This document shows positions 688 to 34,571 of a stretch of DNA of 35,545 nucleotides, piece after piece. A model generated the notes under the pieces. That model saw only the letters and a list, made by a program, of their open reading frames with translations. It ran no database searches and had not been told where the DNA came from. Source of the DNA: a virus; IMG/VR virus record IMGVR_UViG_3300002835_000567, positions 1 through 35,545 of that record. One strand, 5' to 3'. The position numbers and the translations under genes were made by a program. How positions within the stretch are numbered: the stretch's first letter is position 1; each line of letters opens with the position of its first letter.

Positions 688-855
688 TTATTTGGATACG
701 TCGTCTAAGTCATCTTCTATATCTAGCAACAGAATTGTCATTAGTGCCAGCATCACCTCATCTGGGTGATCTTTAGCGTACTGAATTGCCTGGCGTAATT
801 TGTTAGTGATCCGTTGTCCGTTGCTAGTTGTTAGTGGTAATTGCAGTTGTCGCAT
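688..855 (-). CDS. Small early protein with acidic tail (55 aa)
   Basis: The frame encodes MRQLQLPLTTSNGQRITNKL, a helical middle, and a strongly acidic C-terminus (DIEDDLDDVSK). An AGGTAAC site precedes the ATG by about 5 nt. It is the first gene downstream of the hairpin promoter-like element at 888-917; the predicted leader is about 38 nt. No known domain is visible. Position and size fit an early gene. Confidence 0.7.
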   Translation of the reverse strand: MRQLQLPLTTSNGQRITNKLRQAIQYAKDHPDEVMLALMTILLLDIEDDLDDVSK

Positions 856-887
856 ATTGGTTACCTTTAGTTAGTACACAATGGTCA

Positions 888-917
888 CTGACCGTGAGCC
901 CGGAACGGGCGAACGTT
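888..917 (-). promoter_or_regulatory. N4-type virion RNA polymerase promoter hairpin, copy A
   Basis: On the + (template) strand this reads CTGACCGTGA, then stem GCCCG, loop GAA, stem CGGGC (898-910), then GAACGTT. On the transcribed (minus) strand the hairpin is followed by TCAC and then GG. Taking the loop centre (904) as -11 puts +1 on the G at 893, exactly the N4 geometry of 5-bp stem, 3-nt loop and 4-nt spacer. Two more copies occur at 1717-1746 and 2701-2730. It lies just upstream of three leftward genes (855 to 1). That this phage uses an N4-like enzyme is inference; the repeated hairpin is seen directly. Confidence 0.7.
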
Positions 918-1130
918 CTAGAACTCCTCCGTTGGAGTTTCCAGTTCGCGCAGCTTTTCCTCTGCCATCATGCGCATGTGCGCCATGGAGTAGATGGCAT
1001 GGGCTGCTTCGTTAGTGAGGCGAAGGGTTTCATACATGGCCTTGGAGTCCTGGTCTGGGGAGGACTGCAACGAGCTCAACGCCCGTTGCAGTGAGTCAAC
1101 CGCCAGTACGTAGCACTGTGTGTGGTTCAT
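918..1130 (-). CDS. Small helical early protein (70 aa)
   Basis: I chose the ATG at 1130 (MNHTQCYVLAVDSLQRALSS). Its first bases overlap the TGA of the upstream 109-aa gene in an ATGA arrangement, implying translational coupling. A longer in-frame start at 1163 lies inside the upstream gene and is less likely. The protein is predicted largely helical, with a Met-rich middle (SMAHMRMMAEEKL) and an acidic end. No family recognised. Its stop directly abuts promoter element A at 917. Confidence 0.7.
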   Translation of the reverse strand: MNHTQCYVLAVDSLQRALSSLQSSPDQDSKAMYETLRLTNEAAHAIYSMAHMRMMAEEKLRELETPTEEF

Positions 1131-1456
1131 ACGGGCGGGTGTCCGCAACCCCAGCGGTGCCAAGAGGCAATGTCTGCGGCTTCGTCTTCGGTTTGGTAGT
1201 AGTTCGACATCCGGTCATAAGGCTCAAGCCACCAGCGGCTAGCGTTCTGGTCGAAGTTAAACCCGGCACGTCCGACGTACCAGCCTGCGCCTGAGCGCAT
1301 CGGGATCGGAGGGCTAACGACAAGCGTGCCGTGGGGGAAGGTGGTAGAGAAGTTCTGGTTTACGAAGTCTAGGAACTGGCTGAGGTTAGCGACGGGGGCG
1401 TCATCACAGTAGATGACTTGGGGGTCAAATAAGTCGTGCTGTTGTGGTTGCGACAT
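1127..1456 (-). CDS. Hypothetical early protein (109 aa)
   Basis: The frame starts at an ATG at 1456 with a GGAAAA ribosome site and encodes MSQPQQHDLFDPQVIYCDD, a central GAGWYVGRAGFNF segment and an aromatic C-terminal half (ASRWWLEPYDRMSNYY, then ASWHRWGCGH). No catalytic motif or membrane segment is visible. The aromatic content and regular spacing suggest a compact alpha/beta fold. It is the second gene of the unit behind hairpin element B, 17 nt after the 66-aa gene, and is coupled by ATGA to the next. Confidence 0.7.
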   Translation of the reverse strand: MSQPQQHDLFDPQVIYCDDAPVANLSQFLDFVNQNFSTTFPHGTLVVSPPIPMRSGAGWYVGRAGFNFDQNASRWWLEPYDRMSNYYQTEDEAADIASWHRWGCGHPPV

Positions 1457-1473
1457 GGTTTGGTTTTCCTGTG

Positions 1474-1674
1474 TCAGTCGGTATAGAAATGGATGCTAAC
1501 GGCGTTCCCGAAACGGTGGACTTCGGTGCCGAACGTGTTGTGATCGTAGCCTTTGCTCTCGATGTACTCGACGAGCTGCTGGTTAGTTAAGTTGAAGTCG
1601 TTGACCTCGAGGGTGTGAACGTTGCGGCAGTAGAGACGCTCGCACCGAATGTACTGAATGGGCTCTAGTGTCAT
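1474..1674 (-). CDS. Hypothetical early protein (66 aa)
   Basis: It starts at an ATG at 1674 with an AAAGGT ribosome site (MTLEPIQYIRCERLYCRNVH) and ends in VSIHFYTD. The first gene behind hairpin element B (1717-1746). The sequence alternates polar and hydrophobic residues, and the segment QQLVEYIESKGYD looks like a short helix. Two cysteines (RCERLYC) could be structural. No family recognised. Confidence 0.7.
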   Translation of the reverse strand: MTLEPIQYIRCERLYCRNVHTLEVNDFNLTNQQLVEYIESKGYDHNTFGTEVHRFGNAVSIHFYTD

Positions 1675-1716
1675 GTGAGTACCTTTGGTTGTTATGTAAA
1701 TGAATCAATTGAACAT

Positions 1717-1746
1717 CTGACCGCGAATCGGGAACCGATGAGCGTT
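1717..1746 (-). promoter_or_regulatory. N4-type virion RNA polymerase promoter hairpin, copy B
   Basis: The + (template) strand reads CTGACCGCGA, stem ATCGG, loop GAA, stem CCGAT (1727-1739), then GAGCGTT. The transcribed strand continues TCGC-GG after the hairpin, so +1 falls on the G at 1722, 11 positions from the loop centre at 1733. The stem sequence differs completely from copies A and C while pairing, loop and flanks are kept: a compensatory pattern that argues for a selected hairpin. It precedes the leftward genes 1674 to 918 and lies 52 bp left of the DnaA box at 1799. Confidence 0.7.
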
Positions 1747-1798
1747 GTACTGTATAAGTGGACAGTGGTTAGTGGTCAGTTTTGATTACTAGTTTGAG

Positions 1799-1807
1799 TT
1801 ATCCACA
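1799..1807 (+). promoter_or_regulatory. DnaA box, perfect consensus
   Basis: The nine bases TTATCCACA match the high-affinity bacterial DnaA box. The site is 3 bp from the first iteron at 1811. A chance 9-mer match is expected now and then in 35 kb, but its position at the edge of the iteron array makes it significant. Confidence 0.6.
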
Positions 1808-1810
1808 GAC

Positions 1811-1924
1811 TGTGTGCAGGCAAGGGTCTAAATGTGTGCAGCAAACAAGCCAATGTGTGCAGCAAACGAGGGGGTGTGTGCAGGCATTTTTCCTTATAAA
1901 TCAATGTGTGTTCACTGTGTGCAG
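1811..1924 (+). repeat. Direct iteron array, 5 x TGTGTGCAG
   Basis: Perfect copies start at 1811, 1833, 1854, 1875 and 1916, giving spacings of 22, 21, 21 and 41 bp, that is two or four helical turns, so bound proteins would lie on one face of the DNA. A degenerate copy (TGTGTGTTC) starts at 1905. Copies at 1833 and 1854 extend to TGTGTGCAGCAAAC; those at 1875 and 1916 extend to TGTGTGCAGGCATTTTT. Confidence 0.85.
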
Positions 1925-2001
1925 GCATTTTTTCAACTTCGCAGAAAAAACACATGTATTTCTTTGAAAAACGTTTGCTCTCAAAATGAACTTAAAAAAC
2001 C

Positions 2002-2138
2002 CTGCACACACTGCACACACTGCACACATTTCGTGTTTGCAGATTTAAAGTGTTTGTGGATCAAGGACTTAGCTGTGTGCACTTGCAACAAAGTTGCCTG
2101 CACACATTCCTGCACACAAACCGTAATGGCTGCACACA
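2002..2138 (-). repeat. Inverted iteron array, 6 x CTGCACACA
   Basis: Perfect reverse complements of the left iteron start at 2002, 2011 and 2020 (head-to-tail, no spacer), then 2098, 2110 and 2130. One opposite-facing near copy TGTGTGCAC is at 2074. Together with the left array they frame an AT-rich core, giving a roughly symmetric layout. Confidence 0.85.
2055..2063 (-). promoter_or_regulatory. Near-consensus DnaA box, reverse orientation
   Basis: The + strand reads TGTGGATCA, so the minus strand is TGATCCACA, one mismatch from TTATCCACA. It faces the perfect box at 1799 across the AT-rich core. One mismatch is common by chance, so this is weaker evidence on its own. Confidence 0.35.
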
Positions 2139-2234
2139 CCCATAACGGGCGACTGACCACGGACCATGGACAACTGGCCATGAGCACATGACCTATGTCC
2201 ACTGGCACATGACAGGTGTTGCGTGCAAACAACA

Positions 2235-2264
2235 ACTGACCACGGTACGTTGACCGTGGTCAGT
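2235..2264 (-). terminator. Stem-loop, likely terminator of leftward genes
   Basis: A perfect 12-bp inverted repeat (ACTGACCACGGT and its complement) encloses a 6-nt loop. Read leftward it begins about 10 nt after the stop of the 53-aa membrane protein and is followed by the T-rich TTGTTGTTTG, as in a rho-independent terminator. It would stop leftward transcription before it crosses the origin-like region. Confidence 0.5.
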
Positions 2265-2273
2265 GGCTAGTTG

Positions 2274-2435
2274 TTAGTCGTTAGTGGCCAGTGATGCGAG
2301 GATGCCGATGGATGAGAGACCGGTTGCGATGAGCAGCGAATAGCTGACCGGGGGCTCAGTGAAGAACGAGCCGATGAAAGTGATGTTCGCGAGGATGGTA
2401 AAGACTAGTGAAGTCTTAGCATTGGTGAAGGACAT
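2274..2435 (-). CDS. Small two-TM membrane protein (53 aa)
   Basis: The ATG at 2435 has a GAGGAAC site upstream. The protein starts MSFTNAKTSLVFTILANITF and contains two hydrophobic segments, about residues 8-25 and 30-49, joined by a short FTEPPVS turn. It should be a hairpin in the inner membrane. It is the second gene behind hairpin element C, 53 nt after the 56-aa gene. Function unknown: small early membrane proteins may act in superinfection exclusion or membrane takeover, and a small holin is possible although the clear holin is at 23094. A GGGAGG/CCTCCC hairpin lies in the spacer before it (2461-2481). Confidence 0.7.
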   Translation of the reverse strand: MSFTNAKTSLVFTILANITFIGSFFTEPPVSYSLLIATGLSSIGILASLATND

Positions 2436-2488
2436 TGGATAGTTCCTCGTGGTTAAAGATGGGAGGTTGGAGGTCCCTCCCGATTGGA

Positions 2489-2659
2489 TTAGCTGAAGAG
2501 GTTGAGTACGCCGAGGACGAATAGAGCTGCCATGTCAGGCTTCTCTTTAGCGTAGGTGACGACAGACTTGGATGCTTCTTTTGCTTTCTCAGCAGCGATA
2601 TACATCTTGTCTGGTTGTTCGTTGTTGATGTCGTTGTTGTTGGTGGTTTGATTATCCAT
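2489..2659 (-). CDS. Small early protein with C-terminal hydrophobic segment (56 aa)
   Basis: The ATG at 2659 follows an AGGAGT ribosome site. The N-terminus is Asn-rich (MDNQTTNNNDINNEQPDKMY), then a Lys/Ala helix (AAEKAKEASKSVVTYAKEK) and a short hydrophobic tail (MAALFVLGVLNLFS). This suggests a tail-anchored or membrane-associated helix. It is the first gene behind hairpin element C. No family recognised. Confidence 0.7.
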   Translation of the reverse strand: MDNQTTNNNDINNEQPDKMYIAAEKAKEASKSVVTYAKEKPDMAALFVLGVLNLFS

Positions 2660-2700
2660 GAGTAATTACTCCTAGTTAGTGAACAGATACACAATAATCA

Positions 2701-2730
2701 CTGACCGCGAGACACGAAGTGTCGAGCGTT
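2701..2730 (-). promoter_or_regulatory. N4-type virion RNA polymerase promoter hairpin, copy C
   Basis: The + (template) strand reads CTGACCGCGA, stem GACAC, loop GAA, stem GTGTC (2711-2723), then GAGCGTT. The transcribed strand continues TCGC-GG, putting +1 on the G at 2706, 11 from the loop centre at 2717. The predicted transcript shares its first bases (GGTCAGTGA, then ATTGTGTA) with that of copy A. It precedes the leftward 56-aa and 53-aa genes. Confidence 0.7.
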
Positions 2731-2995: not shown

Positions 2996-3466
2996 GTGTC
3001 AGACACTAAGACATGCGCTCGCTGCCAGACGGACCTGCCCATAACGGCCTTCGAAGCCATGAAAGGCGGCTACAGGACGATATGCCGCCCCTGTCACCAA
3101 ACCACGCGCCGCCAAAAACGGTCCACGGGCTACGAACCGTACTTGGCGAACCTCGTATCTATAAGCAAGAGTAAGAGCCGCAGTCGTGGGTTCACAGACT
3201 ACGAAGTTACAGCCGAGTACCTCGCAGAACTCTGGCAACGGCAAGATGGCCGTTGTGCGATATCGGGGGTCGTTCTTACCCATCACAATGACGGGTCGGG
3301 TGCTAAGGACTTCAACGCTAGCATCGACCGAATCGACAGCCAGCAAGGATACACCCCCGGCAATGTGCAGCTGGTCGCGCTTCGCGTTAACCTCCTCAAG
3401 CAGAGCTTAAGTACGGATATGCTGTACTGGTGGGTGAAGACTATCTACCAGTACTCTTGTGATTAG
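2996..3466 (+). CDS. HNH endonuclease with N-terminal zinc ribbon
   Basis: A 156-aa protein starting at GTG (2996) behind GGAGAGG. Cys pairs C7/C10 and C30/C33 form a zinc ribbon. The nuclease part follows from about residue 84: GRCAISG, then HH (96-97), SIDRID (109-114) and GYTPGNVQLV (118-127), the DR...GY..xN pattern of HNH/beta-beta-alpha-metal nucleases. It is the first rightward gene, two genes ahead of the terminase. HNH proteins beside terminase genes in many phages assist DNA packaging or cleavage of the packaging site; others are free-standing homing nucleases. The class is clear; the role is inferred. Confidence 0.85.
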   Translation: MSDTKTCARCQTDLPITAFEAMKGGYRTICRPCHQTTRRQKRSTGYEPYLANLVSISKSKSRSRGFTDYEVTAEYLAELWQRQDGRCAISGVVLTHHNDGSGAKDFNASIDRIDSQQGYTPGNVQLVALRVNLLKQSLSTDMLYWWVKTIYQYSCD

Positions 3467-4256: not shown

Positions 4257-5923
4257 CAGACGAGATACCAACTATTGAGTGCATGAAGTGCAAGAATCTC
4301 CATCCGGAGACGTTGTACTCAGGCAAACACAAAGGGGTATGTGTCTACTGTCTCGCTGATGCGGAGCAAGCGCTGCTTAATCCAGCGCAGTCGAAACCCG
4401 ATAACGAACCACTGTCAGAGGCGGCTAAGAAAGAGTTCGATGTAAAGGAACAGGCGCGGAAAGAACTAGCTGAACGAATACTCGCGCGTAAGCGGCTGCT
4501 GCCATTTGTTGAGAAGTTCAATCCAGACTACAACGCGGGTTGGGTGCACAAAGATGTTTGCAAACGACTTGAACAGTTTTCTCGGGACGTTGTGGATCAA
4601 AAGTCGCCGAGGCTTATGCTCTTTATGCCACCGCGTCATGGAAAGTCGACGCTTGCGTCGATTTCATTCCCGGCTTGGCATCTGGGTCGCAACCCTTCGC
4701 ATGAATTTATTAGTTGCTCGTATTCAGGCTCGCTTGCGATGGGTTTCAGTCGTAAGGTTCGTCAGGTACTCCGTGAACCGTCCTACAAAGCGATATTTCA
4801 GACGCGTCTCGATCCGGATAGCCAGAGCGCTGAGGCGTGGCTGACAACTGATGGCGGTGGCTACGTAGCTGCCGGTGTCGGTGGTGGTATAACAGGTAAA
4901 GGTGCTCATGTTCTCGTTATCGATGATCCGGTGAAGAACCGGGAGGATGCCGAGAGCCAGAACAACCGGGATGCTAACTGGGACTGGTATACGTCAACGG
5001 CGTACACCCGTCTTGCTCCTGGCGGCGGCGTGTTGGTCATTCTAACGAGGTGGCATGATGATGACTTGGCTGGTCGACTTCTTAAAGCGGGTGCTCAAGG
5101 TGGGGACGACTGGGAAGTTGTCAGATACCCCGCTATCGCCGAAGAAGACGAAGAATTCCGCAAAGCGGGAGAAGCCCTCCACCCCGAAAGGTACGACGTC
5201 GAAGCGCTCAGGCGCATCGAAAAAGCCGTAGGCCCGCGTGACTGGTCGGCGCTCTTTCAGCAGAACCCTGTAGCAGATGACGGCCAGTACTTTACTCGCG
5301 GCATGATCAACTACTACGACTTTGACGAGATTGACCAGGAATCCATGCGGTACTACTGCGCGTGGGACTTGGCCATCGGTAAGAACGACCGCAACGACTA
5401 CAGCGTTGGGATAGTGGTCGGTATCAACGAGCACGACGACATGTTCGTCATGGACTGCGTGCGCGGTCGGTTCGACGGCTTCGAACTCGTCGAGCGGATA
5501 CTTGACCTGTACGTTCAGTGGAAGCCATCGATCGTTGGCATCGAAAAGAGCCACATTGAAATGGCGCTCGGTCCGTTCCTCGAGAAACGTGTGCGTGAGC
5601 GCGGGTTGTTCGAGGCGTACTTCAAAGACCTTAAGACTGGGCGGCGCGACAAGGAAGCGCGTGCCCGAGCCATCCAAGGACGTATGCAGCAGGGGAAAGT
5701 ATATTTCCCTCGTGACGCTTCGTTCACTGGTCCGTTACTCGCGGAACTTCTTAGGTTCCCGAACGGTATGCATGACGACCAGGTCGACGCCTTGGCGTGG
5801 ATCGGTCTCATGATGTCTGAGTTCTCTACGTATCAAGCCCCGGTAGTACATACACCGTCTTGGCGGGACAAACTCCTCTCTCTTACTCGCGGACCCCGCC
5901 AAAAATCCGCGATGAGTGCATAA
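4253..5923 (+). CDS. terL: Terminase large subunit
   Basis: A 556-aa packaging motor protein. The ATPase domain carries Walker A PPRHGKST (near residue 126) and Walker B VLVIDDP (near 220). The C-terminal RNase H-like nuclease shows AWDLAIGKNDRNDYS (Asp near 371) and the late acidic motif HDDQVDALAW (near 507). Translation likely starts at TTG 4253, overlapping the small-subunit stop (TTGA), because the first 33 residues include four cysteines (10, 13, 30, 33) forming a zinc ribbon, unusual for this family and alike in spacing to that of the HNH protein. It pumps DNA into the prohead through the portal. Confidence 0.95.
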   Translation: MTDEIPTIECMKCKNLHPETLYSGKHKGVCVYCLADAEQALLNPAQSKPDNEPLSEAAKKEFDVKEQARKELAERILARKRLLPFVEKFNPDYNAGWVHKDVCKRLEQFSRDVVDQKSPRLMLFMPPRHGKSTLASISFPAWHLGRNPSHEFISCSYSGSLAMGFSRKVRQVLREPSYKAIFQTRLDPDSQSAEAWLTTDGGGYVAAGVGGGITGKGAHVLVIDDPVKNREDAESQNNRDANWDWYTSTAYTRLAPGGGVLVILTRWHDDDLAGRLLKAGAQGGDDWEVVRYPAIAEEDEEFRKAGEALHPERYDVEALRRIEKAVGPRDWSALFQQNPVADDGQYFTRGMINYYDFDEIDQESMRYYCAWDLAIGKNDRNDYSVGIVVGINEHDDMFVMDCVRGRFDGFELVERILDLYVQWKPSIVGIEKSHIEMALGPFLEKRVRERGLFEAYFKDLKTGRRDKEARARAIQGRMQQGKVYFPRDASFTGPLLAELLRFPNGMHDDQVDALAWIGLMMSEFSTYQAPVVHTPSWRDKLLSLTRGPRQKSAMSA

Positions 5924-10391: not shown

Positions 10392-11534
10392 ATGGCTCTT
10401 ACTAACTTTGCGGCGCTGACTAGTGAACAACTCACGGCGTGGAGCCGTGACTTCTGGCGCGTCGCTCGCAATATGTCGTTTGTGAACCAGTTCGCTGGTT
10501 CAGGTTCTAACGCGATGATCCAGCGGGTCACCGAGCTTACGAAGTCCGACAAGGGCACGAAGGCCGTGATCACGTTGTTGGCCGACATGACCGGTGACGG
10601 CGTGACGGGTGACAGCTCGCTCGAGGGTAACGAAGAGGCGCTCCGCGCTTATGACATCACCATTGAGCTCGATCAGCTGCGCTTTGCGAACCGTATCGCT
10701 GGCCGCCTCGCTGACCAGAAGTCGGTGGTGAACTTCCGTGAGACGTCCCGTGACGCCCTCGCCTACGCGATGGCTGATCGTATCGACCAGCTCGCGTTCT
10801 TGACGCTCGCCGGTGTTGCTTACACGCACAAGACGAACGGTGGTCTCCGTCCGGTGCTGGCTTCTGGCCAGAACCTGTCGAACCTCGAGTTCGCCTCGGA
10901 TGTGTCGGCTCCGACCGCTGCTCGCCACCTTCGCGTTTCAGGCAACGACATCGTCGCCGGTGACACGACCGCGATTACTACGGCCGATGTGCTGAAGTAT
11001 CGTCATGTGGTTGAGTTGAAGGCCTACGCTAAGGACCAGTATGTCCGTGGTGTTCGCGGTGCTGGTAACGACGAGGTGTTCCACCTCTTCGTGACGCCGC
11101 AGCAGATGGCGGCCCTTAAGCTCGATTCGGACTTCCTTGCTAACGTGCGTAACGCTGGCATCCGTGGTCCGAGCAACCAGTTGTTCGCTGGTTCGAGCTC
11201 GCTGATGGTTGACGGTGTGATGGTCCACGAGTTCCGCCATGTGTTTAACACTGCTGGCGCGACGACTGGTACCTCGGCGAATGCAGGTGCCGCTGGCTAC
11301 AAGTGGGGCGCTAACGCCAACGTTGTTGGTGGTCGCGCACTCTTCTGCGGTGCTCAGGCGCTTGCTATGGCCGACATCGGTCTGCCGGAAATCGTCGAAG
11401 ATACCTTCGATTACCAGAACCAGTCTGGTATCTCGATTGGTAAGATCTTCGGTCTCCGCAAGCCGAAGTACAACAGCGATGTCACTGCCAACGTCCAAGA
11501 CTTTGGCGTGATCGCGCTCGACACGGCCGTCTAA
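10392..11534 (+). CDS. Major capsid protein, N4 gp56 family
   Basis: A 380-aa protein (MALTNFAALTSEQLTAWSRD). It shows the wording of the N4-gp56 (DUF4043) capsid family: GTKAVITLLADMTGDGVTGDS, SLEGNEEAL (near residue 77), ITIELDQLRFANRIAGRLADQ and MADRIDQLAFLTLAG. These proteins have the HK97 fold and form the icosahedral shell. The codon choice looks more uniform and GC-richer than that of neighbouring genes, consistent with high expression. It has its own leader and terminator. Family assignment is by recognised motifs. Confidence 0.92.
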   Translation: MALTNFAALTSEQLTAWSRDFWRVARNMSFVNQFAGSGSNAMIQRVTELTKSDKGTKAVITLLADMTGDGVTGDSSLEGNEEALRAYDITIELDQLRFANRIAGRLADQKSVVNFRETSRDALAYAMADRIDQLAFLTLAGVAYTHKTNGGLRPVLASGQNLSNLEFASDVSAPTAARHLRVSGNDIVAGDTTAITTADVLKYRHVVELKAYAKDQYVRGVRGAGNDEVFHLFVTPQQMAALKLDSDFLANVRNAGIRGPSNQLFAGSSSLMVDGVMVHEFRHVFNTAGATTGTSANAGAAGYKWGANANVVGGRALFCGAQALAMADIGLPEIVEDTFDYQNQSGISIGKIFGLRKPKYNSDVTANVQDFGVIALDTAV

Positions 11535-15187: not shown

Positions 15188-17473
15188 ATGGCTGACAATA
15201 TCGGTAGTGCAATACTGGCTGGTATCCAAGGTGCGCAACAAGGTGCACGCCAGCGACAGGCTATGCTTCTTCAACAGCAGGAGATGGACCTTGCTCGCCA
15301 GCGCGCAGCTCGAGAAGACGAGCAATTAAAGATTCAGCAAGCACAACTTGCTATTAACCAGGATGTAAATGATAGAGCGAGACAGCAGCAGACTGAGTTG
15401 TTGCGTGCAAGCGCAAAAACTCGTCTAGCGGAAGATTCTGATCGCGTGTTTGGCAGAGCGCAAAGCCTTGGCATCATCAAGCGCGATGGCAGCATCGACC
15501 GTGAGGCTTTGGCAAAAGGTATTAAGAGCGGCGACCGTCAGTACATCGGCGTTGTTGCGGACATCCTGAACGTTAACAAAGCAGAAGAGAATTTAAACCG
15601 TGGGAAGTTTGACCCTACAGACTTCCGATTTACTGGGGTAGATCCAGAAGCCTTGAAGCAAGGCAGACTAATTGCTACCGGGCAATATAGCGACGGTCGC
15701 CAGGGAGTGTTTACTGCACAGGGCGGATCTGAGCCGAACGAGAATGTAATTAATACGTCTGTCGACGAAGGCGTAGATCTTGCTATTGAAGCGCTTCAGA
15801 TGCGCGTTATCCCTAACTCAAATATGGGAGCGACAAGCGCAGAATCCCGTTTGAACGTTGGAAGAAACGTTGGAGGAACTATTGCCGACGCGTTTAGTAA
15901 CGTGTCTCCGGTGTACGCCCGTCGAAGCGGCGCACGTACAGTCCTTAACGCCATAGACTCTAGCGGACTACCGGTAGAAGCAAGCCGTACGGTTATCGCG
16001 CAGCTTGCTGCTATTAAAGACCCTAAGCAGAAGCAGGAGTTTCTTTGGAACTTATCTAAAGAACTAGGCGTAGAAGCAGAAGTTAAAACGCAAGGCGGTC
16101 TTTCTTCGTCAAGGTTGGGAGAAGACCGAGAAAGATTACTGCCAGGCACTGGTGGAACACCCATTGCTGTACCAGTAACTATAAAGGCAAGCGATAAGGT
16201 TCGCGGTCTAGATATTCAGTTGGGTAAAAAACGCGCTGAAGCAGATAAACTGCCAGTTGATTCCCCAGCAAGGGAACGTCTTGAATTAGAAATCACGGAT
16301 CTTAACACCCAACGCGGCGAGTTTATCCGTGGTGAAAACGAACGCGTTTGGACTGGTTTTGAAACAGAAAGCAAACGCATTAAAGAAGCCTCTGCTCGTC
16401 CAAATGCTACCGCAGAGACAAAGAGCTTTTGGTCTAAAAAGCAGCAAGACCTGGACGCAAAGAAACAAGCATTCATTAAGGCAGGCGGCTACACGCCTGT
16501 TATGCGTACCACTGACTACGCTGCTCTTGAGCAGAACGTACTCTCTCGCATTAAGCAGATGTCACCTGGCGAAATTGCTACGGCAGTTCAGAATGGGCAG
16601 CTTAAGTTCTCTGAGCCAGAAGTACGTGCCATGCGCGCAAGACTTTCTGAGTCTGGAGCTGGCTCGGTTAACGCCGTTGCAAAGGCGCACCCGAAAGAAG
16701 AGATCATTGGATCATTTGCTATTGCTTATGCGCAGTCTACTAACCCAGCGCAGCAACAAAGTCTTCTTACTATGATTGCCAACACCGCTGAAACTGGTAG
16801 TCCGTTCTTGAGTGACGCAGCCCGTCGCGAAATGGATCTACAAGAACAGCGAATGGCGGTTGATCTTGAGACAGCGCGCCTTCGCGCAAGCACGTCCGCT
16901 AATGAAGTTAAATTGGCTAATATTCAGGCGCTAGACAGAGTTTTAGTAGACAGCGCTAATATGCTTAACCGCACCGAAGACGGTAAACCAGTAAAAACAA
17001 CTTTAGACGACGCTCGTCGATGGGCTGTTGCTGCTCTCCCTCGAAATCAATTTAATATAGGGCAACTGGCACGACTAGATCCAGTTTTAGCGCAACAAGG
17101 CTATAAGGCGCACATGGGCCAAACTTCTCAGGCGCTTGCAACTTTCTTTGACGAAATGCCTAGCGGCGGTTTTTTGGGCCCGGCTAAAGATGTTTTGTAT
17201 TCTTGGTTTGGCGACAAACCTACGATAGATTCTATGGCGCAGCGCCTAGAGAACGTTCGTGTTGTTACTGAAAAAGGAAGCGACGGCATTGACCGTGTAA
17301 AGTCTGTTTACTTGGTGAACAGAAGCACTGGGAAGCAGCAGGGCAAAGAGCTAACTGCTGCCCAACTTCAGAATATGGACGGAGGCCCAGAGTTGTTTGG
17401 GATTATCTCCACTGCTGGAGTTATTAACAACAGCATAGCAGCCACTCGTGCCGCCGCTAACGCTAAGCAGTAA
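15188..17473 (+). CDS. Large internal virion protein, T7 gp15-like position (761 aa)
   Basis: ATG at 15188 after GAGGT. Residues 1-75 are a Gln/Arg-rich coiled coil (RQRQAMLLQQQEMDLARQRA). A long helical body follows, with a further charged coiled coil around 345-430 (LDIQLGKKRAEADKLP; ETKSFWSKKQQDLDAKKQAF). No enzyme motif seen. In T7-like ejectosomes the gp15 protein forms a tube with gp16, and size and order match here. Inference from order. Confidence 0.68.
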   Translation: MADNIGSAILAGIQGAQQGARQRQAMLLQQQEMDLARQRAAREDEQLKIQQAQLAINQDVNDRARQQQTELLRASAKTRLAEDSDRVFGRAQSLGIIKRDGSIDREALAKGIKSGDRQYIGVVADILNVNKAEENLNRGKFDPTDFRFTGVDPEALKQGRLIATGQYSDGRQGVFTAQGGSEPNENVINTSVDEGVDLAIEALQMRVIPNSNMGATSAESRLNVGRNVGGTIADAFSNVSPVYARRSGARTVLNAIDSSGLPVEASRTVIAQLAAIKDPKQKQEFLWNLSKELGVEAEVKTQGGLSSSRLGEDRERLLPGTGGTPIAVPVTIKASDKVRGLDIQLGKKRAEADKLPVDSPARERLELEITDLNTQRGEFIRGENERVWTGFETESKRIKEASARPNATAETKSFWSKKQQDLDAKKQAFIKAGGYTPVMRTTDYAALEQNVLSRIKQMSPGEIATAVQNGQLKFSEPEVRAMRARLSESGAGSVNAVAKAHPKEEIIGSFAIAYAQSTNPAQQQSLLTMIANTAETGSPFLSDAARREMDLQEQRMAVDLETARLRASTSANEVKLANIQALDRVLVDSANMLNRTEDGKPVKTTLDDARRWAVAALPRNQFNIGQLARLDPVLAQQGYKAHMGQTSQALATFFDEMPSGGFLGPAKDVLYSWFGDKPTIDSMAQRLENVRVVTEKGSDGIDRVKSVYLVNRSTGKQQGKELTAAQLQNMDGGPELFGIISTAGVINNSIAATRAAANAKQ

Positions 17474-17481
17474 CTGAACGC

Positions 17482-20400
17482 ATGGCTGAAAGAACACCAG
17501 TCCTTTCGGAGCAAGAGGATCAGTTCACGTCTTTTTTACGAGACGTATACTCATCTACTCCAGAGGAAGACGCACAGTTCCAAAGATTTGCTGCTGGAGA
17601 GAACGCTCCGCAGCTACCAACTGCGCCTGGCAACTTGCAAGAAGTATTTAGCGCCGGTATTGAGTCCGGTGTTCAAGGACTGGCAGCAGATCTTGAATAC
17701 TTTAAAGCCCTTGGCAACACCCTTATGGGGGATGAACAAGCCGCTGCTTTAAATATCCAAGAGGCTCGACTCCGTGAGGAGTTTGCTGCAGCGCCAGTAC
17801 AAGGTCTCGATACGTTTGAACAGTTCTTAGACCAGCCTACATTCGGCGGGTTTATTGAACAGGCAACCAAAAGTTTTGGCCAGGTTCTGCCATCAGCCGC
17901 GCTATCTATAGCGGGTGCCGGTACCGGTGCTATTACAGCCGCCGTCGGCCGTGGCGTACTTAATCAGGTCAACAAGCAGGTTGCCAAGCGAATCATAAAA
18001 GACTCCGTTGAGCGTACTGCCAACGGCGTTGCTGATCCTGTCGAACAACAAATTGCAGAGCTGGCTTATGGTTCTCTCCGCACGGCCGCTAAGCGTGGCG
18101 CTATAGGTGGTGCATTCGCTGCCGAATATGCGCCTATGTCGGGTAGCAATTTGTCCGAGGCTCTCGAAGCCGGACAGCCACTTGACCAGGCCAACGCGCT
18201 ACGGGCCGCTGCTATCGGCATTCCGCAAGCAGCAATCGGCGTCGGTAGTGAGTACGCATTACTTAAGCTGATCGGCGAGCAAGCCACTAAGCGTGCCGCT
18301 GTTGAAGGCGGCGTATTTGCAAATTTTGCGAAGCGGTTAGGCACCGGTGCGCTCCAAGGCGGTGCTATCGAAGCCACCACTGAAGTAGCTCAAGAAGGCA
18401 TTAGCGTCCTAAACCGCGCTGACCTAGACCCGCTATTTACTGCAGAAGACGCCAAGATGCGTCTCGCAGAAGCTGCGTTTGCTGGTTTCTTTGGCGGTGC
18501 TGCTCCTGGCGGTGCTGGTGGCGCTATAGGCGGAACGCTAGACGCTGTGTCGTCTATGAAGCCTGGCCAAGGAGTGCTTACTAATGTAGGCAACATTGTA
18601 GAAAAGGCTAAAGGCTTCCTAGAAACAGCTCGTGGTCAACGCGTTGATCAGCAAATCAACAACGAGCAGTTTGGCGATGTGGCGGCTGGCTTAACAACAC
18701 CCGAGTCTGAAGGCGACATTGACGCTCAGCTCCGTGCGATGGTTGATCCGTCTAGCGGCAAAAAAGCCGTGTGGATTGCTGGTGCCGCTCCAAAATTTAA
18801 CGCTCCGCAAAACCGGGTTAAGACGGCTAGCATTAACGGGACACTGGCATATTCAGCGTTCGTCCCTGGCCGAGGTACAATCGTATCTACGAACGAGGAT
18901 GTGGTTCGCGAAGTTATCGCAGCCGGTGCATCAGACAAGGCCTTGCAAATCGCCCTCGGTTACAGCGCCGTCAAAGACTATTCTGCCCCTGGTGACATTG
19001 TTGTTCAGGCACTCGACCGTAACGGTCGGGTCATCTCTGAAGAAGTCACGTCGCCAGAGGGGGTAAGTGCTGCTTTCGAAGCCGCTCGTAATCTGATGCC
19101 CGAAGGTGGCAGCATCCAACAGACTACTGTAGAAAAGGCGCTCGAAGATCGTAAGCGCCGCTTTGAGTCAGAGCAGCGAGTCGAGGTTCGTGACATTGAC
19201 TTGTCTGACGAACAGACCGACGAGACAGACGCTGACCAGGTAGAGATGTTCGGCCAAGGCGTGCAAGCCGTAGAGGGGCAACGCACAGTTGTTCGAGCGT
19301 ATGGTCGTAAGACTGACCCGAACCGAGTGTTTGATAACACACAGTCCGCCCGTGCCTCTTACGACACGGTGTTCGGTGAGACTAACTGGGCTGACCCGCG
19401 TTTCGCGTCTATGACCGAAGCGATGCTTAACGCTGCTGTAAATGAGCAGCGCAGTAACCCAGACTCAGCGGTATCTATTGAAGACACGCCAGATGGTGGG
19501 TATCAAATCGTTCGCGATGATTTTGGCGATCTGTTCCGCTCAATTGATACGGCTGGCAACGAAGTACGTCTAAATCTCCCTGAGTTTTTACGTTCTGCCA
19601 TACAGAGAGCACGCCGAAGCAAGTACGCTCAGAACTCTCGCGTTACTATTGTTGGCCCAGACGGAAAAAAGTCAGCCGTAAACCTTGTTGACCTTACTGC
19701 GGCTGGGCAGCGCTTACTAGAAGGCCGTGAAGGATCTGGGTTTCAGTTGCGCCAAGACCCACGTACCGGCGCTACATACGTATCTCCAGAAGCAGCCGCC
19801 AGGGCTGGTTTGCTTGAAGTCTTGGGCGATTTGGCTGTTGAAGGGTACGATGTACAGATCGATGGGCAGTCGCTTTTCCCTGGCTTCCAGCTGACGCCTG
19901 ACCGTAATCAGGCTGCTGCTGGCCGTATCCCTGCTCGATTAGGCAACGTAACTGCGGCAGTTATTGGCGGCCGTCAGCGATCTTTGAACGATCTTCTGAA
20001 CCCCGTCCAAGAGTCGGTGATGACGGCAGAAGAGCGCCAAGCTGCGCTTGCTGCTGAACCGCTCGGCCCGCCAAGAGATGATGTTTCAGACGGCCGTACC
20101 GAAACAGAACGTATGATCGAGTCGAGCGTTACGGGCGGTGAGCTCCTAACGCCGATGAACATCGACACGCCGCGCTCAGCTATTGATCTGCGCGCTGGTC
20201 GTGCTCCTACTACTGTAAGCCCGTTGGCCGAAAGACGCTCGGCGCAAGAGCGTATCTCTAACGCCATCAACAGCATGGTCGGCGATATTGTTCGCGACCT
20301 GTTTGACTCGCTCAAGTTTGCCGACCCGCCGCATATTTTTACGTTCGCTGAACTCATAGCTATGTCGGATGACCAGCTATTGCAGCTGTTTGGCGGCGCG

Positions 20401-22932
20401 TTGAATCCAGTACGCGAAGCAATCGCTAGCATGCAGAATAGCTCCACAAAGATGGGCATGCATATTTCTGGACAGTTTGGAAAGATAATTATCCTTCGAG
20501 AGTCCGGCAACGTACTGCAAGACGCTCTTGTTATTGCGCACGAAATTGGCCACAGCCTCTACAAAGAGGAGCGGAATAAAGCGCTTGAGAACTCCGCTAT
20601 TCGTAAGCGGCTGTTTAGAGCCTATCAGTCATCCCCATCGTTCAAAGACCTAAAGGACAAGTACGGGTTTGATCTCGGCTTTGAAGAGTGGTTCTCTGAC
20701 CAGGTGGCTTTGTGGGCTAACAAGCGGTACAGAAGCCGTCAGAAGGCTGATAGTCTCGTTAAGAAGTTCTTCAAGGACTTTGCGGCTCGCCTTGAGTCGC
20801 TCTGGAAGCAGACATCGGAGTCTTTCCGTAAACGGTTTGGCGGACGACTTGGAGCCGTCAACGAAGACTTCGAGACGTTCATGGACGCTGTCCTTGAGTC
20901 CAGAAAGTCACAAGTAAAGGAAAACGGCTTATCCTTTACTGAGCGAGCATTCGTATACGAGCTTAACGACCTTAATATTGCCAACGGCGGCGCAGCCCGA
21001 GCGGCGCACTGGCAGTCGAAGATCTCGCAGCTTAAGAAGAGCCCATACGTTAAACCTATCCTTCGGCTTGTATCGACGGCCGATGGCATCCTGCGTATGT
21101 ACGCCGGTAACGAAATAGCGGATATGTTTTACGTACGGGCCCAAGATCCGACCGGCAAAGGCCGTCTTGGTTTTGTACCGCAGTCGGCGCGTACGTTTGA
21201 CTTGTATAAGAACCGACTTGATACGGAGTTAGGGTCATTTGATGATCCGGCTCTGGACGCAGAGTTCGATAAGGCAGCGTCAGACACGCCGACCGCACAG
21301 TTGACCGGTAAGGCGCTGGCCATCCGCCAGTTCCTTGAGGACTTCTACTCAGAATACGTCAGCCCATCGAAGACTAAGATCGGCTTCCAGCGCGACTACT
21401 TTCCGCGTCTGCTTGATCTTGTGGCTATCTCAAATGACCCGCAAGCATTTGTCGATTTGATTCTGCAGGCCGACCCAAGTGCAAACCGCGCAAAAATAAC
21501 TAGCAGAGTTCAGAAGCTCGTAGACCTTCAGCAGGCGGTAACTAACGGCGCCGACGTAGAAGGCAACCCGTTGGACCCGGCCGCTAGCGTTAACGAGGCG
21601 CTTGAGTTAACGAAGAACTTAACTCGCCAGCAGCTTCGAGATAACGGCTTTTTGCTCCCGCCAAAGCAGGCGTTTTCTGAGTACGTCCGCAAGGTAATCA
21701 AGCGCGTCGAGTTCGACCGCGCTACCAAAGATGACCAGGGTAACGATCGCCTCAAGCCGCTGCTGGATGCTCTTGCACCAGAGGATCGCGAGCAGGCGCT
21801 GCAGGTTATCAACACCTACATGGGTTATCGCGCTCCGCTCAGTCCGTTCTGGCGAAAGCTGAACAGCTGGGGGCAGTTCATTCAGTTCGTGACTATCCTG
21901 CCGTTTGCTGCAATCTCGTCTGTGACAGACCTGGCTGGTCCGGTTATCGCGTCAAAAGAGTTTGGCGACCTGACGACTGGCATGAAAGAGGTAGTAGCGA
22001 CTATCAAAAACCGCGAAGAGGCCAAACAGTTGGCTCGCGACATCGGTGTCGTTACGCCAGAAGCCGTGGCTAACGCGTGGATCACTGATGCGGACGCCGA
22101 CTATATGGATCCGACCGCTCGTAAGTGGTCTGACCACTGGTTCTCGTTGACTGGTTTGAACTGGTTCACTCGGTTCACTCGTGAGTTTGCTACCGGCATG
22201 GGCGTGCAGTTCATTACGAAACACGCACGTAATGAGTTCAATAACCCGCGATCGGATCGGTACCTCGAAGAGCTTGGTCTGACCCGAGCCGATGTAACGA
22301 GCTGGCTCAACAGTGGGCGCAAGCTTTCGACGCCAGAAGGTAAGAAGGTTACTCAGGCGCTGCAGCGATTCGTTGAATCTTCGACGCTGCGTCCTAATGC
22401 TGCAGAGCGACCGGTGTGGGCGTCTGATCCGCACTTCGCTTTGATATGGCAGCTGAAAGGTTACTTTTACTCCTACGGTAAGGTCATCCTAGGCGGTATG
22501 TTCTCGGAGGCTGAAACCAGACTTCGTGAGCAGAATATTGGAACCCCGTGGCAGCGTGTTGGGTCCGCAGCCGGGCTGCTCGCGCTTACTGCGGTAGCGA
22601 CTATGCCGCTGGCAATGCTTGGTATGGAACTTCGCGAGTACGCAAAGTTTGGCCTGGCAGCGTTCTTACCGTTCGTTGAGGCCGACCAGAAGTACTTCCG
22701 GACCGACCGTATGGACTGGTCTGAGTATCTCGGAACGGCCTTTGAGCGGTCAAACTTTAGCGGGCCATTTGGGCTAGCTACAGGGGCTTCAAATGCTGCT
22801 AACTTTGGCGACAGCCCACTGTTTACGCTTCTTGGACCCACGACAGAGACTATCGATACCGCTATGACTAATGGCTGGCGGATAGACCGGACGTTGAAAG
22901 ACCGGCTGCTGCCAATTTATAACCAGCTGTAA
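17482..22932 (+). CDS. Giant ejection protein with zincin motif (1816 aa)
   Basis: The largest gene in the window. N-terminal helical region with a small-residue-rich hydrophobic stretch near 135-155 (SAALSIAGAGTGAITAAV). A metallopeptidase centre lies mid-protein: AHEIGHSLYKEE with H1020, E1021 and H1024, then GFEEWFSDQVALW (E1068, E1069) as candidate third ligand and helix. The C-terminal third has two hydrophobic segments (near 1467, QFVTILPFAAISSV; near 1695, GLLALTAVATMPLAMLG). T7 gp16 and its relatives are similarly large and carry a cell-wall-cutting domain at another place. I searched by eye for T7-like RNA polymerase motifs (KxxxRYxxYG, HDS) and found none. The ribosome site is weak. 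Confidence 0.72.
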   Translation: MAERTPVLSEQEDQFTSFLRDVYSSTPEEDAQFQRFAAGENAPQLPTAPGNLQEVFSAGIESGVQGLAADLEYFKALGNTLMGDEQAAALNIQEARLREEFAAAPVQGLDTFEQFLDQPTFGGFIEQATKSFGQVLPSAALSIAGAGTGAITAAVGRGVLNQVNKQVAKRIIKDSVERTANGVADPVEQQIAELAYGSLRTAAKRGAIGGAFAAEYAPMSGSNLSEALEAGQPLDQANALRAAAIGIPQAAIGVGSEYALLKLIGEQATKRAAVEGGVFANFAKRLGTGALQGGAIEATTEVAQEGISVLNRADLDPLFTAEDAKMRLAEAAFAGFFGGAAPGGAGGAIGGTLDAVSSMKPGQGVLTNVGNIVEKAKGFLETARGQRVDQQINNEQFGDVAAGLTTPESEGDIDAQLRAMVDPSSGKKAVWIAGAAPKFNAPQNRVKTASINGTLAYSAFVPGRGTIVSTNEDVVREVIAAGASDKALQIALGYSAVKDYSAPGDIVVQALDRNGRVISEEVTSPEGVSAAFEAARNLMPEGGSIQQTTVEKALEDRKRRFESEQRVEVRDIDLSDEQTDETDADQVEMFGQGVQAVEGQRTVVRAYGRKTDPNRVFDNTQSARASYDTVFGETNWADPRFASMTEAMLNAAVNEQRSNPDSAVSIEDTPDGGYQIVRDDFGDLFRSIDTAGNEVRLNLPEFLRSAIQRARRSKYAQNSRVTIVGPDGKKSAVNLVDLTAAGQRLLEGREGSGFQLRQDPRTGATYVSPEAAARAGLLEVLGDLAVEGYDVQIDGQSLFPGFQLTPDRNQAAAGRIPARLGNVTAAVIGGRQRSLNDLLNPVQESVMTAEERQAALAAEPLGPPRDDVSDGRTETERMIESSVTGGELLTPMNIDTPRSAIDLRAGRAPTTVSPLAERRSAQERISNAINSMVGDIVRDLFDSLKFADPPHIFTFAELIAMSDDQLLQLFGGALNPVREAIASMQNSSTKMGMHISGQFGKIIILRESGNVLQDALVIAHEIGHSLYKEERNKALENSAIRKRLFRAYQSSPSFKDLKDKYGFDLGFEEWFSDQVALWANKRYRSRQKADSLVKKFFKDFAARLESLWKQTSESFRKRFGGRLGAVNEDFETFMDAVLESRKSQVKENGLSFTERAFVYELNDLNIANGGAARAAHWQSKISQLKKSPYVKPILRLVSTADGILRMYAGNEIADMFYVRAQDPTGKGRLGFVPQSARTFDLYKNRLDTELGSFDDPALDAEFDKAASDTPTAQLTGKALAIRQFLEDFYSEYVSPSKTKIGFQRDYFPRLLDLVAISNDPQAFVDLILQADPSANRAKITSRVQKLVDLQQAVTNGADVEGNPLDPAASVNEALELTKNLTRQQLRDNGFLLPPKQAFSEYVRKVIKRVEFDRATKDDQGNDRLKPLLDALAPEDREQALQVINTYMGYRAPLSPFWRKLNSWGQFIQFVTILPFAAISSVTDLAGPVIASKEFGDLTTGMKEVVATIKNREEAKQLARDIGVVTPEAVANAWITDADADYMDPTARKWSDHWFSLTGLNWFTRFTREFATGMGVQFITKHARNEFNNPRSDRYLEELGLTRADVTSWLNSGRKLSTPEGKKVTQALQRFVESSTLRPNAAERPVWASDPHFALIWQLKGYFYSYGKVILGGMFSEAETRLREQNIGTPWQRVGSAAGLLALTAVATMPLAMLGMELREYAKFGLAAFLPFVEADQKYFRTDRMDWSEYLGTAFERSNFSGPFGLATGASNAANFGDSPLFTLLGPTTETIDTAMTNGWRIDRTLKDRLLPIYNQL

Positions 22933-23579: not shown

Positions 23580-24091
23580 AAGTCTCCCCCGCCGCCATCC
23601 AGATGATCAAGCACCACGAAGGGGTGCGGACTAAGCCTTACCGCTGTCCTGCCCTTTTGTGGACGGTCGGCGTGGGCCACGTAATTGACCCAACCCACAC
23701 GAGGATAAAGTATGAGGAGCGGCGTAATATATCGGTACCCCCTGGCTGGGACAGAGTCCTCTCCGTGGGAGAAGTTGACGCTCTTCTTGCTGAAGACCTT
23801 GGCCGTTTTGAGCGTGGTGTACTTAGACTGTGTCCTGCTGCTGCTGGCCGTCAGGGAGTTTTCGATTCTCTCGTCAGTTTTGCCTTCAACGTGGGCCTCG
23901 GCAATCTCCAGCGTTCTTCCCTTCGGATGAAGACCAACCGGGGCGAGTTTGAGGAAGCGGCTGATGAGTTCCTGAAGTGGACTAAGGCCGGTGGCCGGGT
24001 ACTTCCTGGCCTGGTCAAACGGCGTATGGACGAGCGTTCCTTGTACTTGTCCGGCGTGCATTGTACAAACGATCCTGCTAATATCCGGTAG
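23576..24091 (+). CDS. Endolysin, T4-type lysozyme (GH24)
   Basis: A 171-aa muramidase. The catalytic triad is E15, C24 and T30 in EGVRTKPYRC then LLWTVGVGH, the E-8-(D/C)-5-T spacing of lysozymes like P1 Lyz or R21. A Cys replaces the usual Asp. The C-terminal half has GVFDSLVSFAFNVGLGNLQR and LPGLVKRRMDERSLY, standard GH24 wording. It starts GTG overlapping the holin stop (GTGA). There is no signal peptide or SAR segment, so release depends on the holin. It cleaves the peptidoglycan glycan backbone. Confidence 0.93.
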   Translation: MKVSPAAIQMIKHHEGVRTKPYRCPALLWTVGVGHVIDPTHTRIKYEERRNISVPPGWDRVLSVGEVDALLAEDLGRFERGVLRLCPAAAGRQGVFDSLVSFAFNVGLGNLQRSSLRMKTNRGEFEEAADEFLKWTKAGGRVLPGLVKRRMDERSLYLSGVHCTNDPANIR

Positions 24092-33108: not shown

Positions 33109-34571
33109 GTACGCTCACTCAATTTACTGGCGGCGGCGATTCGATACTCGGGGAAGTCGTCGAGTTTAACGCGCGAACCAAAGGGTTTAGCTTTACTGAC
33201 GGTACTCGCGAATACATGCAGACCGGCGTTATCAAAGAGTACTCCTCTGCGTACGCGCCTCTTGTTGCATCAAATACGCTGTGTGGAATCAGCGTGCCTA
33301 CTGATCCCCTCCATAAGGATTGGTCGTTCTTGTCGTACTCAAACTACTGGAACCAAACTTCTAGTCATGCTGGCGCCAAATTTTTTCAGCTAGGAACAGA
33401 TCAAGCAAGCGGACTTCCGTACAAGCATATATGCCTAATTGGCAGCAACTACGCAGGCGCAGGTTCTACTTGGTTCAAGCATAAGTACGGCGTCAACTTT
33501 GCAAACACCGTGACCGCCCAGCAGGACGACGACGGTGGCGGAGTTCATTCAGTTCATTTGTTCAATAACCGGCTCGTGTTTAGTGGCTACCGCTCCTCAA
33601 TGGATACTGACGCCAACGGCTTCAGTATGTTTTGGTCGACGGGCGCTAATAGCCCTACACAAAATGCTACTCGTAACTATCAGACTACATGGAACTGGGG
33701 CTACACGCCGATCCCAGCGGAAAATCAGACTACTGCGCTTTTGTGGACTATTTATGAGTACGCCAGAAGCGGGTGGAGCGCTAACGCCTTTAAGACCACA
33801 GACGGCGTTAACTTTACGTCGCTAAATATCACTTCAGATCTACGTTATCCGGGTCGGTTTACTTGGTCTACTGTGGGTAACTGTTGGATTATGGTGACAT
33901 GGGACGGCCGTATCATGACGTCTGCTGACGGACAGACGTGGACTCAACGGACTGTTCCGGTTGGTATGCCGACCTCTATAGGCCATTCTATGTTGTTTGG
34001 CTCTTCGGGGTATCGCTTCTGCGTAGATCATCCGACCCAAGGCACCATTATTTGTCTCGATAGTAACGATACAACTAGTCTGTACTTCCTTAAGACTACA
34101 GACGGTATCAACTACACCCTCTTAAACGCAGCGAGTGCAAACCCCCACCTGCGTAATTATTTTTGGGGTGCATCTGGCTATCAGCCGCGCCTTATGCGGG
34201 ATGGCGATACGTTGATTATGTACAACGTATCAACTACTAACGGTGACACTGCAGGTTCTACCATTGCCACCTCTACGGACTTTGGTCAGACCTGGACGCT
34301 TCACCCATTAATTTTCAACAACAACCCGCCAAGCAATACGTTGCAGACTGCCGGTGGTATTTACTTAAACTTTATGGGGTTAGAGAAGTTTGATTCTAAG
34401 TGGTACGGAATTTTCATGGCTCGCAACCAATACGGCACTGTTGGTACAAAAGCCTATGAATTAACAAACCGTGGTGGTTATTTCTCAGGCACGCCAACCC
34501 ATATTGGCGTAACTCAGGGCCTTTCGTTTGCAACCGGCAGCAGTTTGTCGCCCTATGTTCGGATTAAGTGA
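33105..34571 (+). CDS. Asp-box beta-propeller-like tip protein, cassette 2 (488 aa)
   Basis: ATG at 33105 overlaps the fibre stop (ATGA); an in-frame ATG at 33093 is the alternative. The protein is Trp/Tyr/Asn-rich and carries four Asp-box-like motifs (x-x-D-x-G-x-x-[WFY]): TTDGVNF (near 231), SADGQTW (near 272), TTDGINY (near 332) and STDFGQTW (near 389), spaced 40-60 residues, as in sialidase-type or BNR beta-propellers. I see no arginine triad that would prove sialidase activity. Likely a carbohydrate-binding or degrading receptor tip. Confidence 0.75.
   Translation: MSTLTQFTGGGDSILGEVVEFNARTKGFSFTDGTREYMQTGVIKEYSSAYAPLVASNTLCGISVPTDPLHKDWSFLSYSNYWNQTSSHAGAKFFQLGTDQASGLPYKHICLIGSNYAGAGSTWFKHKYGVNFANTVTAQQDDDGGGVHSVHLFNNRLVFSGYRSSMDTDANGFSMFWSTGANSPTQNATRNYQTTWNWGYTPIPAENQTTALLWTIYEYARSGWSANAFKTTDGVNFTSLNITSDLRYPGRFTWSTVGNCWIMVTWDGRIMTSADGQTWTQRTVPVGMPTSIGHSMLFGSSGYRFCVDHPTQGTIICLDSNDTTSLYFLKTTDGINYTLLNAASANPHLRNYFWGASGYQPRLMRDGDTLIMYNVSTTNGDTAGSTIATSTDFGQTWTLHPLIFNNNPPSNTLQTAGGIYLNFMGLEKFDSKWYGIFMARNQYGTVGTKAYELTNRGGYFSGTPTHIGVTQGLSFATGSSLSPYVRIK

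Follow-up and report, generated by a model that had tools for sequence, protein, structure and literature searches.

A stretch of 35,545 bp, the whole of IMG/VR record IMGVR_UViG_3300002835_000567 and here called the window, carries three hairpin elements that would be the promoters of the leftward, replication-side and presumably early genes of this virus. The record has no end repeats and is an incomplete genome. We lean towards a hairpin-promoter mechanism like that of phage N4, read by an enzyme other than a recognisable N4-type virion RNA polymerase (vRNAP). The promoter reading is based on the geometry of the N4 promoters P1-P3, covariation of the stems, the placement before SD sequences and start codons, conservation through +6, a downstream TTRTGWA box and the absence of a sigma-70 site at the elements.

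Element C (888-917) reads CTGACC GTGA GCCCG GAA CGGGC GAACGTT, element B (1717-1746) reads CTGACC GCGA ATCGG GAA CCGAT GAGCGTT, and element A (2701-2730) reads CTGACC GCGA GACAC GAA GTGTC GAGCGTT, all on the plus strand, which would be the template strand of leftward transcription. The folded parts are 893-915, 1722-1744 and 2706-2728, with the putative +1 at 893, 1722 and 2706, respectively. The positions given in the initial annotation were exact. A scan of the 35.5 kb for such hairpins, requiring a loop of GAA/GGA type and a CC at four bases' distance, found just these three, and the same pattern written backwards gave 0 matches. The three elements are not a product of chance.

The covariation first noticed among the three stems was also found at larger scale. 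When IMG/VR viral contigs were scanned in a structure-blind way, with the flanks and GAA fixed and all ten stem bases free, 80 matches were paired 5/5, with nine stem sequences among them, against 15 chance matches that paired at 3/5 or less. In 22 distinct elements, standard pairs filled 98.9% of pair cells, compensatory double changes occurred in 7 of 8 pairs, and pairing fell to 12-52% when the partner was slid by 1-3 columns; some of these 22 came from a structure search, and the unbiased evidence is the flank-only scan (80 vs 15). The conserved flanks pair on the plus strand as well, CGY with RCG, with GA lying opposite GA. The folded unit therefore consists of 3 bp, a tandem G·A/A·G step, 5 bp and a GAA triloop, that is 10 layers counted from the putative +1 C, and DNA folding of all three window elements gave (((..(((((...)))))..))). 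The outer pairs co-vary too, being CGC/GCG, CGT/ACG in the element at 888 and CAC/GTG in other elements. The layout first described is correct for CTGACC, the 5-bp stem and the GAA loop; however, the TCRC spacer and the GARCGTT box are not unpaired flanks but contribute to the folded unit. The internal loop was GA/GA in 26 of the 30 canonical-register elements selected as promoter-like, and four other types were found once each.

Opposed GA steps (5'-GA-3'/3'-AG-5') and G-N-A triloops both belong to the classical motifs with sheared G.A pairs. Their chemistry would favour folding of the plus strand, from which the leftward genes are transcribed, because the other strand would bear TC/TC and TTC. 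The loop of N4 itself has a sheared pair between -10G and -12A (PMC4496689). Watson-Crick covariation tells neither which strand folds nor whether the folded molecule is RNA or DNA, and the count of wobble pairs for the two strands was tied (4 vs 4), which leaves room for an element acting as RNA, either in the leader of the leftward mRNA, as a hairpin, or as an antisense RNA from the plus strand. We consider this very unlikely. On the mRNA strand, the hairpin would have UC/UC mismatches and a loop of UUC, while the stable tandem G.A and GNA lie on the plus strand, and an RNA from that strand would be antisense to the genes downstream of the element. The structure of the leader RNA was not above that of shuffled sequences (mean z -0.08), and no Rfam family was above threshold, the two sub-threshold matches both lying away from the elements.

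The elements sit before leftward genes, as had been claimed. Of the 45 distinct sites listed, 43 have an SD sequence and start codon 38-62 nt after the GG that faces the template CC; this count is approximate by one, as one site lies in a contig without a clear start, another has its only start, a doubtful one, at 101 nt, and one match from the structural search looks spurious. In the window, the start codons of three minus-strand ORFs follow the putative +1 by 38 nt (element C; 55 aa, 688..855), 48 nt (element B; 66 aa, 1474..1674) and 47 nt (element A; 56 aa, 2489..2659). Conservation extends as far as +6 (GGTCAG), which is also the case in T7-family promoters, and a second conserved box with the consensus TTRTGWA was found at +13..+19 from column counts of 25 distinct leaders. 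On the minus strand, it is TTGTGTA in the leaders of element C (875..881) and element A (2688..2694), and a weak match in that of element B (1704..1710).

No sigma-70 -35/-10 hexamers were found at the leftward gene starts, and there was one elsewhere in the region against 3.1 expected. This bears on the explanation that the host RNA polymerase transcribes these genes while the extruded hairpin or cruciform binds a protein, of the phage or of the host, by which they are switched on or off. Such a regulator could be seated at the TTRTGWA box, and no phage RNA polymerase was found in the relatives. We nevertheless regard it as unlikely, since the elements lack a sigma-70-like promoter, and since the constant spacing between loop and GG, with conservation ending at +6, resembles a start site and not an operator.

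The same hairpin scan, when run on N4, recovered its three early promoters P1-P3. These promoters, which are read by the virion RNA polymerase gp50, have the 5-bp apical stem, loop centre at -11 and GG start in common with the elements described here (PMC4496689), and in both phages the template strand can be written CC-N4-5bp-GRA-5bp and early genes are preceded by a small number of such copies. N4 loops are GAA or GGA, and that of P1 is GAA as here. The initial annotation is thus borne out in placing the loop centre 11 positions from GG with the hairpin on the template strand, and the elements have what is expected of an N4-type promoter, namely a template-strand hairpin with a 5-7 bp stem and a purine-rich 3-nt loop at -11. 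The two systems differ in several respects. The N4 vRNAP contacts the stem bases -8G and -9C (PMC4496689); positions -8/-9 are G/C in N4 P1-P3 but C/G, G/G and A/C in the three window elements, so the contact bases are not conserved. With its 10 layers, which include tandem G.A steps, the stem here takes in the spacer that stays separate in N4, and unlike that of N4 it has the putative +1 C paired at its base. Conserved flanks and GGTCAG are also present here, and the relatives have no vRNAP or RNAPII gene. Three predicted hairpins of 4-5 nt with 3-nt loops also stand before the early genes of LUZ7 and LIT1 of Schitoviridae (PMC3715699), but those genomes encode a vRNAP and a heterodimeric RNAPII, neither of which was found here.

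The part of the genome that is missing from the window is covered by near relatives. Among them, G004 (56.1 kb) was taken as a complete genome, because its ends overlap by 314 bp at 98% and a near-identical permuted relative, G006, spans its end junction. A profile built from the central domains of 11 Schitoviridae vRNAPs gave only E>0.5 throughout the relatives, while held-out schitovirus vRNAPs were found at 1e-267 and 1e-187. The polymerase family PF00940, which characterises a T7-type system, gave nothing in nine clade records including the window, with the complete G004 among the genomes searched; as positive controls, it found T7 RNAP at 1e-110 and N4 at 1e-14; the N4 RNAPII was detected, and the N4 vRNAP faintly. 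Profile-to-profile comparison of ten conserved proteins with vRNAP showed no relation. Complete and near-complete relatives thus have no gp50-type vRNAP gene, the window's own record being incomplete.

It had been supposed that this phage carries a genuine N4-type vRNAP in its virion, encoded outside the window. The promoter geometry, the N4-gp56 capsid and the homologues of N4 gp24/gp25 in relatives would agree with that, but the empty searches with working controls stand against it, and given the complete relative this explanation is largely refuted; we hold it to be highly improbable. The very large T7-like RNA polymerase gene for which a search had been proposed is not recognisable in any clade genome searched, and this speaks against an N4-like vRNAP gene, not against hairpin promoters as such.

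Two virion proteins were considered as carriers of the polymerase. The larger one (17482..22932, plus strand) is an ejection-type protein of 1816 aa, cysteine-free like N4 gp50, with a HEIGH motif in an invariant HExxH...EEW zincin, and its C-terminal part is related to a KPP25 structural protein and LUZ24 gp50, which are particle proteins. It was rejected as a homologue of N4 gp50, because the alignment is confined to the HExxH stretch, which matches the C1 HExxH domain weakly (E 0.006-0.03); the C1 domain of N4 gp50 has been described (PMC12633501). An AF2 model of residues 331-1130 (pLDDT 68; residues 1-330 and 1131-1816 lie outside it) showed small alpha/beta domains and the zincin, and within this part no PDB fold matched at E<=0.001 and no RNAP-like fold was seen. 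A vRNAP hidden in this protein was rejected, as there was no profile match or polymerase domain, no RNAP-like fold in 331-1130 and no conserved polymerase motif, the DxDxD at residue 1536 not being conserved. The other one is a mostly helical, cysteine-free, probable ejection protein of 761 aa (15188..17473, plus strand), which had no support as a vRNAP; its model was poor and was made without an alignment.

For the hairpin promoters that we favour, the mechanism may be as follows. As in phage N4, the template strand would form a DNA hairpin, extruded by negative supercoiling, and this hairpin would be the form recognised by the polymerase. RNA would then start at the GG that faces the template CC, with about 40-60 nt of leader between GG and the ribosome-binding site and start codon. 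The reader may be a phage RNA polymerase too diverged to be recognised, most plausibly virion-borne, or another enzyme. The first of these is conceivable because a polymerase hidden in a giant virion protein has a precedent in P23-45 (PMC10770324). Against the promoter reading we counted that no candidate polymerase was found, that -8G/-9C are not kept and that the +1 C is paired, and also the tied wobble test and the variants of the G010 type, whose stability is not predicted (see below). In a more specific form, which we put forward only tentatively, a lineage outside Schitoviridae would use extruded template-strand hairpins with tandem sheared G.A steps as promoters for an RNA polymerase of no recognised family, or to make the host RNA polymerase start there.

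To our knowledge, N4-like phages are the one group in which DNA-hairpin promoters have been described, and there the promoters go with a single giant virion enzyme. Here, a group of uncultured podoviruses has N4-shaped hairpins at leftward gene starts without a recognisable N4- or T7-type RNA polymerase in the relatives examined. Elaborated and strongly covarying hairpin promoters without a recognisable enzyme would mean that an RNA polymerase has escaped recognition or that there is a second route of hairpin initiation. The promoters are short and defined, and they could be used as bait for the enzyme.

Three relatives (G010, G011 and G013) lack the consensus and were at first taken to be without the element. 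This was wrong, because they have rearranged versions with 10-layer stems, in which the tandem G.A step lies at other layers and the loop keeps the same distance from the start. In G010, for example, the variant at 33590 has the leader GGTCGGTCTGTTTTGTGAGC, followed by ATG. Variants of the 10-layer design occur in relatives whose flanks otherwise differ. A structure-only search found SD and start codon 33-68 nt downstream in 46 of 108 matches, compared with 2-7 of 64-121 in the controls (reversed, shuffled, and other mismatch or loop types). Nearest-neighbour energies do not predict stability for the variants with two GA steps (G010-type), and their position, leader and pattern suggest that they are the same element. 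After the variants came to light, hairpin presence was useless as a phylogenetic marker for the polymerase gene. Variants with a GGA loop in other contigs were all attributed to chance.

Two contigs showed further arrangements. In G033 (1434-1576), two copies of element A stand in tandem at a distance of 112 bp, which is consistent with a modular cis element. In G035 (4869-4925), a canonical element is directly adjoined by another perfect tandem-G.A hairpin, whose stem differs (GCGAGCCCCGAAGGGGCGAGC) and which has no CTGACC/GG start; therefore the structure and the start word can be uncoupled.

In near relatives, the leftward genes seen at the left edge of the window run on into a block of replication genes, which encodes DNA polymerase A, a DUF5906 primase-helicase, a SNF2-type helicase and an exonuclease and also holds MoxR/VWA genes, the last being homologues of N4 gp24/gp25. 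Between elements B and A (1808-2140), there is a cluster of iteron-like TGTGTGCAG/CTGCACACA repeats in both orientations, which is possibly a replication origin. The hairpins might accordingly be single-strand DNA signals for replication, for primer synthesis or initiator binding, lying in early intergenic regions together with the iteron-like repeats. In Streptomyces telomeres and in parvoviruses, DNA hairpins with sheared G.A closing pairs do act as replication signals and are recognised in single-stranded form (PMC4513846), but those stand at replicon ends, whereas the elements here are internal, in the 5' regions of genes. We judge this explanation quite unlikely, since nearly all copies lie 38-62 nt upstream of a co-directional SD and start codon, which a replication signal would not need, and since element C is well outside the iteron region. 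At 2226-2273, the inverted repeat CTGACCACGG...CCGTGGTCAG reuses the CTGACC/GGTCAG word of the hairpin elements and was also scored as terminator-like on the minus strand.

The rightward structural block of the window contains terminase, a P22-type portal, the major capsid protein, ejection-type proteins, and lysis and tail genes. The capsid protein (10392..11534, plus strand; N4-gp56 family, TIGR04387/Phage_capsid_3) scored 66.6 bits against TIGR04387, whose cut-off is 60, which upholds the family assignment made at first. This capsid is one character of Schitoviridae, but the portal is P22-type (PF16510), and the vRNAP and heterodimeric RNAPII (gp15/gp16) of that family were not found in the relatives. 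The nearest isolates by capsid and ejection protein are Kochitakasuvirus KPP25 and Aeromonas phage phiA008, with capsids 48-54% identical and a related C-terminal region of the ejection protein. In these two isolates, no such element was found at a meaningful score with model R1, and there was no vRNAP. A KPP25 hairpin at 24020 with a near-perfect stem and a GGA loop was not counted, as no annotated gene start lies at promoter distance.

A capsid relative (56%) was found inside a 1.5-Mb bacterial scaffold of Motiliproteus coralliicola, hinting at a prophage and at a gammaproteobacterial host range; 21 kb searched there gave no promoter-like hairpin match. The host of the clade is likely gammaproteobacterial. 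At the start of the structural block, palindromic AAAATTTCTGCAG/CTATAG tracts followed by a -10-like hexamer TATACT (2880-2945) precede the rightward endonuclease and terminase genes, and this site is possibly an activator-dependent host promoter for the block. The block opens with an HNH/endonuclease VII-like protein (2996-3466), which is conserved in several relatives.
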